From Synechococcus sp. UW140 (GTDB lineage Bacteria > Cyanobacteriota > Cyanobacteriia > PCC-6307 > Cyanobiaceae), in assembly GCF_900474295.1 (NCBI RefSeq), contig NZ_UCOB01000014.1:62001-126000 (forward strand): a stretch of 64,000 nt of DNA, read 5' to 3'. Position numbers and translations under genes: made by a program. Below the pieces are notes generated by a model. That model was not told the DNA's origin. It ran no database searches and saw only the letters and a program-made list of their open reading frames with translations. Shown in pieces: positions 8,387 to 12,732 of the stretch; position 1 is the first letter of the stretch, and every line of letters starts with the position of its first letter.

Positions 8387-9463
8387 TCAACCGATGGCAG
8401 GTGCTTGCAGAGCCACAGGAGTGGACTCAGCAGCAGCCAGGTCGAGGGGGAAGTTGTGAGCGTTGCGCTCGTGCATCACTTCCATGCCGAGGTTGGCACG
8501 GTTCAGCACATCAGCCCAGGTGTTCACAACCTTTCCTTGAGAATCAAGGATGGATTGGTTGAAGTTGAAACCGTTCAGGTTGAAGGCCATGGTGCCGATG
8601 CCCATGGAGGTGAACCAGATGCCGACCACAGGCCAAGCACCCAAGAAGAAGTGCAGGCTGCGGCTGTTGTTGAACGAGGCGTATTGGAAGATCAGGCGAC
8701 CGAAGTAACCGTGGGCAGCCACGATGTTGTAGGTCTCTTCCTCTTGGCCGAACTTGTAGCCGTAATTCTGGGACTCGCTCTCGGTGGTTTCACGCACCAG
8801 GGAGGAGGTCACCAGGGAGCCGTGCATGGCGGAGAACAGTGAACCACCGAAGACACCAGCCACACCAAGCATGTGGAAGGGGTGCATCAGGATGTTGTGC
8901 TCAGCCTGGAACACCAACATGAAGTTGAAGGTGCCAGAGATGCCCAGGGGCATGCCGTCAGAGAAGGAACCCTGACCAAAGGGGTAGATCAGGAACACCA
9001 CGAAGGCAGCAGACAGCGGAGCGCTGTAGGCAACGCAGATCCACGGACGCATGCCGAGGCGGTAGGAGAGTTCCCACTGACGCCCCATGTAGGCAGAAAT
9101 GCCAATCAGGAAGTGGAAGATGCACAGCTGGTAAGGACCGCCGTTGTACAGCCACTCATCAAGAGAAGCTGCTTCCCAAATGGGATAGAAATGCAAGCCG
9201 ATGGCATTGCTGGAAGGAATAACAGCACCAGAGATGATGTTGTTGCCATAGATGAATGAGCCGGCAACGGGCTCACGGATGCCGTCGATATCAACCGGAG
9301 GAGCGGCGATAAAGGCAATGATGAAGCAGATGGTGGCCGCCAGCAGGGTGGGGATCATCAGCACACCGAACCAACCCACATAGATGCGGTTATTGGTGGA
9401 GGTGACCCACTGACAAAAGTTTGCCCAGGTACTGGAGCGACCGCTGCGAATGGCAGTAGCCAT
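8387..9463 (-). CDS. psbA: photosystem II reaction-centre protein D1
   Basis: D1 binds most cofactors of photosystem II charge separation and the manganese cluster and is replaced constantly in the light. The start MATAIRSG at 9463 gives 358 residues; the frame is open upstream but lacks homology there. The hallmark regions [49 protein letters not shown] and the C-terminal [17 protein letters not shown] are all present. The tail after DLA is the part removed by CtpA. The residue equivalent to 130 is Gln (129 here), the low-light D1:1 type rather than Glu of the high-light type. There is no ribosome-binding site of the usual kind; the leader instead contains CCTCCTT. Confidence 0.97.
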
Positions 9464-9494
9464 GACGAAACAAGGAGGACGGGACCTGACCCAA

Positions 9495-9511
9495 ATGTCT
9501 TCAACAGACAT
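9495..9511 (-). promoter_or_regulatory. small hairpin in psbA leader
   Basis: ATGTCT and AGACAT form a six-pair stem around a five-base loop about 32 bases before the psbA start codon. In the message this could affect ribosome access or stability; psbA leaders are commonly regulated. Confidence 0.35.
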
Positions 9512-9588
9512 AAGGGCAGGGCCTAAGCCTATGGAGGGTCGATTGTTTTTTGCCAGATTTAAAAACTTCGAGTCATTGCGCAAACTTC

Positions 9589-9621
9589 CTTCATGAAGAG
9601 CTTCATGAAGAGTTCATGAAG
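9589..9621 (-). promoter_or_regulatory. three palindromic TTCATGAA boxes upstream of psbA
   Basis: The 12-base unit CTTCATGAAGAG occurs twice in tandem (9589-9600, 9601-9612), followed by a partial third copy (9613-9621). Each contains the perfect palindrome TTCATGAA at 9590-9597, 9602-9609 and 9613-9620, spaced 12 and 11 bases, about one helical turn. They lie just upstream of a possible psbA promoter (TTGCGC, 16 bases, TTTAAA on the minus strand). This is the layout of an activator or repressor array. Confidence 0.55.
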
Positions 9622-9630
9622 CAATGTTAA

Positions 9631-10980
9631 TCATGCTGTTTTTGCTGCTGTTTGGCCCTGCATCCAGCGGCCGGCCTGTTGAAGGAATCCCTGCCAATTC
9701 AGTCGCTCCTGTTCTGAAGCCTTCGCCACAAGTAAGGGAGCTTGTTGCTTCAACAGCTCCAGATCTGGCTTTGCCACACCGGCATTGAGAGCCATCCAAT
9801 CAGCCATGGAGACACCCACAACCCTGGTGAGATAGGCAGCACTGAGGCCCTGCATCATTCCAGCCGCCATCCAACTGCCACCCTCCAACTTGGCCAGACC
9901 CAGCAAAGCCTGACCACTCCACTCCACCACCCCCTGTGCAAGGGCAGCAGCCGCAAGATGCTTGGCCGCCACCTGCAGAACATCGGGCGTCCAACGGCAA
10001 CCCCAGATCGAACCCATTTCACTCAGCATCAAGCCATTTCCCACGGCCACAGCAAGCAAATCAGTGCTGGGTAAAGGTGAGGCGACAACAGCTCCTGCCA
10101 CGAGCCACTGGCTGCGTTGAAGCAACCCACGGAAGCGTTGACGCCGCAGGCTTTCCAGCTCCGCCTGCCAATCGCGATGTAGGGCCTCCAGCAACCGTTG
10201 ACGGGTCAGATCGAGACCCAGGCTGGGTTGCTGAAGCAGCTGTCGAATCGGCAGCAGAAGGGACCTGAGCTGATCGGGCGACCCATCCCAAACCAGTAAG
10301 CGTTGATGCCAACGGTCTGGCAACTGGGCCAGCAAAGCCTGGTGAGCAGCGTCCCAATCCCCCTCAAGCTCCGCACGATTCACAGCCAGCCAGGCCGGCT
10401 GGCGCAAGGGCACCTCCTGCAGACGCAAGAGATCTGCGGCACGAAGCGGCAGAGGAAGGATGAACAGCAACGCATCCTGTTGCTGAATCGTGAGAGGCCA
10501 AGCCCAGCTATCACTGACACTGGGGAGAGGGTGTCCGACACAAAGGTTGAGGGCATGGCGCCCACTCAGCGCTTGCTGGAGAGCCTTGCTCTCTGGCAAA
10601 GCCACCCCTTCCGATCCCACCACTGCAACAGTCAGAGGGCCGGAACGCTCCACGACCTGGTCAAGCGCGCGCTGACGTTGGTCACGGCTTGCAGCCGTGC
10701 CGGCAAGCTCTTCAAGAGCATCGAATTGGTCAAGCACCGCATCACAGCGCTTCAACCATCCCTGCACCGAAGCAGGGGACTGAAAGGCAGGTGCCTTTGC
10801 AGGCCGGCTCAGCCACCAGATGCCTCCACCCACTGCCAACAGCCCAAGGCCACCCCCAGGAACGTGTAAAACGTCTGCCAGAGCCCACTGCGCCACCAGA
10901 AAACCACCTCCTGCTACAGCGATGCCACGCAGGAGCCTCGGCTGTTCAAGAAAGGAGCCGATTGACGGCACCGGAAGCAT
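9631..10980 (-). CDS. DUF697/YcjF-type membrane protein
   Basis: The 449-residue product starts with two hydrophobic segments (about 18-58). A cytoplasmic domain follows that keeps the outline of a small GTPase-like fold (TVAVVGSEG, then DALLFILPLPLRAADLL and LAVNRAEL) without intact nucleotide-binding motifs. The C-terminal part (about residues 290-420) is the hydrophobic DUF697 region, with VAGAVVASPLPSTDLLAVAVG and long Ala/Gly-rich helices. Cyanobacterial members of this family have no settled function. The gene is upstream of psbA on the same strand but ends at the palindrome array, so separate transcription is likely. Confidence 0.75.
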   Translation of the reverse strand: MLPVPSIGSFLEQPRLLRGIAVAGGGFLVAQWALADVLHVPGGGLGLLAVGGGIWWLSRPAKAPAFQSPASVQGWLKRCDAVLDQFDALEELAGTAASRDQRQRALDQVVERSGPLTVAVVGSEGVALPESKALQQALSGRHALNLCVGHPLPSVSDSWAWPLTIQQQDALLFILPLPLRAADLLRLQEVPLRQPAWLAVNRAELEGDWDAAHQALLAQLPDRWHQRLLVWDGSPDQLRSLLLPIRQLLQQPSLGLDLTRQRLLEALHRDWQAELESLRRQRFRGLLQRSQWLVAGAVVASPLPSTDLLAVAVGNGLMLSEMGSIWGCRWTPDVLQVAAKHLAAAALAQGVVEWSGQALLGLAKLEGGSWMAAGMMQGLSAAYLTRVVGVSMADWMALNAGVAKPDLELLKQQAPLLVAKASEQERLNWQGFLQQAGRWMQGQTAAKTA

Positions 10981-12138: not shown

Positions 12139-12732
12139 ATGACTGATTCCTACGGAGATTCCCAGCAAAATGGGGGACAGGGTGAAGGTGGCCGTGATGG
12201 CGGACGCGATGGTGGTCGCCGTCGCGGTGCCGGGAATCGCGAAGGTGGTGGCTTCCGCATCCGCCTGAGTGACAACGAGATGCGCTCCGTGCGCGCTCTT
12301 CAAGAAGCCTTCAACCTGCGCTCCACTGTCGCGGTGCTGGGCTTTGCGGTGCGGAGCCTCGCCCAGATGCTCGAAGATGGCCAGTTGGATGCCCTGATTG
12401 AACAGGAACGTTCCCGTGCCCCCCGAGGAGGCGGACGTCGCAGCGAAGGTGGCAGGGGCGGTAGCCGAGGCGACGGTGGTCATCGCGGCGAAAGCGGCAG
12501 AGGTGGCGCCGGGGGCAGAGGCGGAGATCGACCTGATCCTTTCGCCCGCCCGGCCAAACCTCAGCAGGCCCCTGTGGAGGAAAACGTAGATGCCCCAGAA
12601 CCTGAGGGTGCTGCACCCGCAAGCGAGGCGACTGAGAGCGAAGCCACGATCGAAACCAGTGTTGGCAGCACTGCCGAGATCACTGTCGACAGCGACGCCC
12701 CTACGGAAGACGCACAAGCCAACCAGGAGTAA
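12139..12732 (+). CDS. Gly/Arg-rich (RGG-like) protein with a helical core
   Basis: The 197-residue product has three parts. Residues about 10-35 are Gly/Arg/Asp-rich. Residues 36-90 form a compact, well-ordered core (FRIRLSDNEMRSVRALQEAF, then RSTVAVLGFAVRSLAQML). Residues 92-130 are a second RGG-like region with repeated GGR and RGG units, followed by an acidic Ala/Glu/Pro tail. RGG regions usually bind RNA or single-stranded nucleic acid, and the core could be a ribbon-helix-helix-like fold; both are inferences. It is three bases upstream of trpS, so it is probably co-transcribed with it. No named family is recognised. Confidence 0.8.
   Translation: MTDSYGDSQQNGGQGEGGRDGGRDGGRRRGAGNREGGGFRIRLSDNEMRSVRALQEAFNLRSTVAVLGFAVRSLAQMLEDGQLDALIEQERSRAPRGGGRRSEGGRGGSRGDGGHRGESGRGGAGGRGGDRPDPFARPAKPQQAPVEENVDAPEPEGAAPASEATESEATIETSVGSTAEITVDSDAPTEDAQANQE

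Follow-up and report, generated by a model that had tools for sequence, protein, structure and literature searches.

A likely operator of three tandem palindromes, held in register with the promoter of D1:1-type psbA genes in marine Synechococcus

What purpose is served by three copies of a short palindrome standing side by side upstream of psbA, the gene of the photosystem II protein D1? Marine Synechococcus exchange D1 isoforms, and in doing so balance the performance of photosystem II against resistance to strong light and UV. The isoforms are told apart here by a Q (D1:1) or an E (D1:2) at about residue 130 of D1, which we take to be their distinguishing mark. According to the accessible text of one study, D1:1 is encoded by a single-copy gene and D1:2 by multiple copies in marine Synechococcus, and in strain WH7803 noon brings repression of the D1:1 gene, whose expression is highest at the light–dark transition, the D1:2 genes behaving in the opposite way (PMC3441193). 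No paper naming the regulator of this exchange in marine Synechococcus was found in the literature searched, which was covered to limited depth. The features discussed below lie in one 64-kb stretch of DNA, the whole of which is referred to as the window; psbA is read from its minus strand, with the ATG at 9463.

8387–9463, minus strand: psbA, photosystem II D1 protein of the GRQWELS (Q) type, D1:1-like (TIGR01151, 764.5 bits)
9525–9535, minus strand: conserved block TCCATAGGCTT with a putative −10 hexamer, TAGGCT, at 9531–9526, at a fixed offset from site 3
9560–9582, minus strand: middle block GCGCAATGACTCGAAGTTTTTA, recognized by alignment and moderately conserved within clades
9590–9597, minus strand: site 3, nearest psbA, TTCATGAA, centred at about −74.5 of the predicted start; exact in 13 of 45 upstream regions
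9602–9609, minus strand: site 2, TTCATGAA, centred at about −86.5 of the predicted start; exact in 37 of 45 upstream regions
9613–9620, minus strand: site 1, farthest from psbA, TTCATGAA, centred at about −97.5 of the predicted start; exact in 41 of 45 upstream regions
9631–10980, minus strand: upstream gene for a DUF697 protein; the array follows 10 nt after its stop codon
12139–12732, plus strand: gene for a ribbon–helix–helix-like protein with a Gly/Arg-rich tail and without a Pfam or NCBIfam match; a lead only

A first-pass annotation had reported three perfect palindromes spaced 12 and 11 bases apart, and exact copies of TTCATGAA indeed begin at 9590, 9602 and 9613, with no further exact copy in the window. 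Copy number alone is only mildly unusual, as 6 of 100 shuffles reach three copies across the window, and sites with a single mismatch show no enrichment (18, with 24.3 expected). What makes the array improbable is its spacing: if the base composition of the window and independence are assumed, 0.0002 exact pairs and 2.5e-9 exact triples at a pitch of 11 or 12 are expected per 2.7 Mb. The array is not a product of chance. In broad scans of genomes and viral contigs the exact pair was found at at least 239 loci, and two of those listed lie at psbA; these two, in Synechococcus single-cell genomes, are G026 and G003, and thus are not new cases. Chance triples were seen at 2 of the 239 loci, both unrelated, among the matches listed (a Methanosarcina contig and a viral contig).

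The distribution among relatives ties the array to psbA. The exact pair (two copies with 2–6 spacer bases between them) is present in 27 of 99 relatives and in 23 of 31 members of the same genus, and a reversed-pattern control was found in one genome of the 99 (G051). At 23 of the 27 loci a psbA match stands beside the array and at three a psbA start lies at the contig end, with none in G083. The first-pass annotation had named random scatter and absence from close relatives as findings that would speak against its proposal; instead, 26 of the 27 exact-pair loci in relatives adjoin psbA, and all 30 same-genus genomes with a readable psbA start keep the array with at most three mismatches in 24 letters while the flanks have diverged. 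Shuffled upstream regions give best fits of 7–13 mismatches (at least 8 in 224 of 225, 7 once). Seven of the eight same-genus genomes that lack the exact pair have a degenerate array at the same place; in the eighth, G029, no psbA was found. In a set of 300 family genomes, the pair joined to a psbA-like start was detected in 40 (18 of 24 in genus g1, 9 of 23 in g5 and 13 of 24 in g10) and in none of the remaining genera, the control giving 0. Degenerate arrays occur in two further genera, in g65 (L393) and, weakly, in g78, where the seven mismatches of L396 are within reach of shuffles.

For a closer comparison we assembled 45 upstream regions (30 from g1, 9 from g5, 4 from g10 and 1 each from g65 and g78). 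The g1 rows are complete for genomes with a readable psbA start, and 7 of the g5 and 3 of the g10 rows were chosen for an exact-pattern match and are biased. Left out were L002 (G035; a pair at pitch 14 in a long inverted repeat), L001 (G083) and G029, both without psbA, second loci of genomes already counted, and the remaining g10 exact-pattern matches without a locus. Because ten rows had been chosen by their exact pair, the 25 non-matching g5 and g10 genomes were also checked; 19 could be scored, two had no psbA match, one had no start and three had only an E-type psbA. Eighteen of these 19 regions, none picked for its array, carry the array with 0–4 mismatches of 24, and in 16 of the 19 the conserved block that contains the putative −10 lies at an offset of exactly 62 from site 3. 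The single scored region without an array (L633 of G291, a 470-contig draft) precedes a Q-type psbA, and no array was found in the three genomes with only an E-type psbA.

Conservation follows the palindromes and not the bases between them. Over 18 hand-picked representatives, sites 1, 2 and 3 show identities of 0.94, 0.91 and 0.87 and the −10-like block 0.74, as against 0.39 for the first spacer and 0.31–0.45 for the flanks; over the first 40 nt after site 3, identity between representatives is 0.41–0.45. Site 3 is the most variable, reading GTCATGAA in 15 of the 45 regions and other variants in 17. No array was detected in the Prochlorococcus-like genomes tested (L035, L400–L402) or in most of the Cyanobium-like genomes tested, both labels being our own reading of the genomes. 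Thirteen full-length D1:1-like (Q-start) matches were found outside the genus: nine are without an array (L386–L388, L390–L392, L394, L395 and L397), and the other four are a g5 row, a g10 row and the degenerate L393 and L396. Two inverted repeats were noticed by eye in this material: the psbA upstream pair of G035 (L002, 906–953) sits inside a perfect 22-bp inverted repeat with a 4-base loop, and in G014 (L034) site 2 is changed to TTTACAAA inside a long inverted repeat.

The geometry is equally constrained. When pitches of 11 or 12 are allowed, the best fit places sites 1 and 2 at 11 bp in 45 of 45 regions, so that the first spacer is always 3 nt long while taking 20 different triplets, and places sites 2 and 3 at 11 bp in 24 regions and 12 bp in 21. 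The first-pass description of a 12-base tandem repeat is thus only partly right, the pitch towards psbA being 11 bp and then 11 or 12. With pitches of 9–14 allowed, 39 of the 45 keep 11 followed by 11 or 12, five shift onto a further degenerate copy, 10 bp higher up, and L396 takes a different fit. A block resembling TCCATAGnCTT has its best-scoring offset at 62 from site 3 in 43 of 45 regions, ties being resolved towards 62; the exceptions are L396, at 63, and L012, which scores best at 81 and nevertheless has the block at the usual alignment column. No row of the 45-row alignment has a gap between site 3 and this block. The distance from block to ATG, in contrast, ranges from 49 to 104, and the spacing of site 1 from the stop codon of the preceding gene from −7 to +83; in 13 of the 45 this stop, a TGA, falls inside site 1. 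The fixed offset, set against the variable distances to ATG and stop, indicates that the array goes with the promoter rather than with the preceding gene; on this alignment evidence, it is most likely a promoter-anchored operator and not a terminator.

An alternative reading, in which the array forms an RNA hairpin or terminator that ends transcription of the DUF697 gene, can draw on the stop codons inside site 1 and on a transcript that folds more stably than its shuffled versions (z −2.17 and −2.98), although tandem palindromes fold anyway. This reading is very improbable: no terminator-like site (a G+C-rich stem followed by a T run) occurs in 9440–9800, the array-to-block distance is fixed while that from the stop codon is not, and changes within a site such as TTGATGAA are uncompensated in the partner site.

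The conserved −10-like hexamer TAGGCT starts 59 nt past the array, and no conserved −35 accompanies it. A consensus scan of 9440–9800 found no sigma-70 pair (two hexamers 16–18 nt apart), so the −35/−10 pair that the first-pass annotation had placed directly beside the array was not recovered. From the predicted −10, on which all distances between the D1:1 array and the start are based, transcription is predicted to begin near 9519, which would give a leader of 56 nt and place the array at about −101 to −71. The annotation had also asked whether the psbA start lies within reach, and the array stands at a constant distance from this putative promoter. The fixed register and the missing −35 suggest a protein that is bound over three turns and aids RNA polymerase. 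The middle block at 9560–9582 is a possible second binding site.

Among nine array-bearing psbA genes whose type was checked, eight are Q-type and one is E-type (L003, G034). In G034, the E-type D1 behind the array is the only psbA match of the genome; gene conversion or assembly may account for this arrangement. In L628 (G317) the best psbA match is E-type and has no array, and the three-site array was found in none of 26 D1:2-type upstream regions. The first-pass annotation had been written without the D1:2 genes, some of which carry a two-site version of the element. We had intended a set of 35 D1:2 promoter loci; L399 dropped out because it had no start, and 34 were scored, 29 with a readable TACANT-like −10 and five without (L398 having been wrongly cut). 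A TTCATRAA-like site lies exactly 36 nt before the −10 in 15 of the 29 readable promoters, a count that is not one of independent cases since D1:2 copies are near-identical within a genome. Fourteen of these 15 sites have at most one mismatch and one has two, and 12 of the 15 promoters show a TTCA partner 11 bp further upstream. In two further promoters a site with one mismatch stands at 35 and 38, and no site with two or fewer mismatches was found near −36 in 11 of the 29, all of which come from the 26 D1:2-type upstream regions or from the Q-start search. The draft of the window's own genome (G000, 35 contigs) has one psbA match, as against 5 to 9, psbD included, in one-contig relatives; its multi-copy psbA genes were probably lost at contig ends. 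G028 (L039) and G017 (L040) encode an additional D1 that has diverged (79% identity) and whose upstream region is unrelated and carries no array.

In the whole of the window's own genome, single copies of TTCATGAA number 39, against 11 for the reversed pattern. Of the 36 other exact single copies, 28 lie inside an open frame and eight do not, and when seven of those eight were read (L318 excepted) no clear second target emerged besides L323. There, a TTCATGAA copy stands in the psbD leader about 15 nt before the ATG (L323, about 801–830; C11:78330), as it does in G131 (L611), and the psbD leader of G128 carries ATCATGAA (L609); four other psbD upstream regions (L610, L612–L614) have no site. 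D2 may share the regulator, or the psbD sites may be due to chance. Among the listed matches to a degenerate pair, 14 places were inspected by eye, and several of them appear to resemble conserved coding sequence. Capture of the array by cyanophages was considered and rejected: paired sites were present in none of 80 viral psbA loci, the best 80 of at least 599, within up to 300 nt upstream (five regions being shorter), one of these loci had a lone exact TTCATGAA, and blastn of 9400–9700 against phage records returned nothing.

We consider it likely that the array is an operator of the D1:1-type psbA gene bound by a light-dependent regulator, probably an activator. Most likely it would serve as a docking site for the regulator that adjusts D1:1 to light in marine Synechococcus, and the protein that binds it would most likely be an activator working in dim light. 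A protein seated side by side on all three sites, along a single face of the helix (about −101 to −71), would help RNA polymerase, directly or through a partner at 9560–9582, at a promoter without a recognizable −35. The same protein could read the weaker two-site version at about half of the D1:2 promoters, some 30 bp closer to the −10, and might act differently there, as the effect of the HLR1 element depends on its position (PMC13421787).

The main rival to a dim-light activator is a noon repressor: a repressor or silencer on the array, acting by looping or by displacing an activator from the middle block, could switch D1:1 off at noon. The same conservation data fit such a protein, and D1:1 expression is low at noon in WH7803 (PMC3441193). 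The sites, however, stop at least 59 nt short of the putative −10 and leave it uncovered, and the lack of a recognizable −35 may suggest that an activator is needed; on balance we regard the repressor as unlikely.

Comparison with known systems bears on which protein might bind the array. Its layout is like that of known tandem operators, and its letters match no motif found in print; neither a description of the element nor a matching motif turned up in the literature searched, within the limited depth of that search. The Pho box bound by SphR, a member of the PhoB family, consists of three tandem 8-bp repeats with 3-bp linkers (PMC1906773). In the array, too, three such repeats stand in tandem, with a first linker of 3 bp and a second of 3 or 4 bp, but its letters, TTCATGAA, do not match the Pho box consensus CTTAACCT, each of its repeats is a palindrome, and psbA lies downstream in place of phosphate genes. 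By analogy, 8-bp repeats with 3-bp linkers would best fit a response regulator of the OmpR/PhoB kind, and a ribbon–helix–helix protein would fit too. PedR and Rre1, of the LuxR/NarL family, act in redox-linked control of transcription in cyanobacteria, as may hold for the array, but their motifs as given in the accessible text, RWWTRGGYNNYY and GTNCGGK, are unlike TTCATGAA (PMC13421787). In Synechococcus CC9605, the ncRNA Yfr103 is reported to have an imperfect palindrome at −29 to −58 (PMC5069720). The spread of candidate regulators gave no lead. Domain counts of the OmpR and LuxR types in 12 genomes, with orthologues unsorted, are lower in the Prochlorococcus-like genomes and single out no protein.

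HLR1 and the array both lie upstream of a low-light D1 gene. HLR1 reads KTTACAWW-N2-KTTACAWW, with a 10-bp pitch, and lies at −66 to −45 for activation (PMC13421787), whereas the array has three TTCATGAA sites at an 11-bp pitch with 3- or 4-bp linkers and does not fit the HLR1 consensus; counted from the predicted start, it would span about −101 to −71. Conservation and promoter register support the earlier suggestion that this is a side-by-side site distinct from HLR1 and belonging to D1 expression, as far as can be judged from sequence. That the array is a diverged HLR1 recognized by RpaB itself is improbable, even though RpaB activates the low-light D1 gene through an upstream HLR1 in PCC 7942 and 6803 (PMC13421787) and the two-site version at D1:2 promoters, at about −59 to −40, comes close to the range of activating HLR1 sites, −45 to −66. 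The two elements differ in letters and in pitch (KTTACAWW-N2 against TTCATGAA-N3). Moreover the segment DTRVVDVHISRLR, presumably the recognition helix of RpaB, does not vary among the 12 genomes compared, which include some from outside the family. An RpaB-like paralogue (L598–L603), 57–61% identical in the DNA-binding domain and with VDVYVARLR replacing VDVHISRLR, is present in five picocyanobacterial genomes (G000, G013, G033, G053 and G128) and in G070, and so also where the array is missing.

Ribbon–helix–helix proteins bind short palindromes in tandem, and the operators of Arc and MetJ are built of short palindromic tandem subsites at about one helical turn, a layout like that of the array. 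A candidate for such a reader is the product of the gene at 12139–12732. This protein is present in 58 of 61 family genomes and in none of 38 outside, its gene and the D1:1-type psbA are no more than a few kb apart in every genome compared except G033, and the structural neighbours of the model (pLDDT 87.6) mostly have the ribbon–helix–helix fold. The best Foldseek E-value, however, is 0.16, with none at 0.001 or below, and the gene's own upstream region has no exact TTCATGAA. Lineages that lack the array conserve the protein equally well, its FRIRLS strand being invariant, which leaves it as no more than a lead, and we hold it to be an improbable reader.

A broader reading, to which we give tentative credence at best, is that one undescribed regulator binds the TTCATGAA element, at its 11-bp pitch, as three distal sites at D1:1 and as two proximal sites at D1:2 promoters, and that position alone would produce their opposite light responses. 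Such a regulator would replace the HLR1/RpaB logic of freshwater psbA genes and would have been lost together with the second isoform in Prochlorococcus-like genomes. A short operator of fixed geometry can serve as bait for its regulator and allows a clear helix-phase test. Together, the array and its two-site version suggest a way for a single protein to work at psbA genes of either kind in marine Synechococcus.
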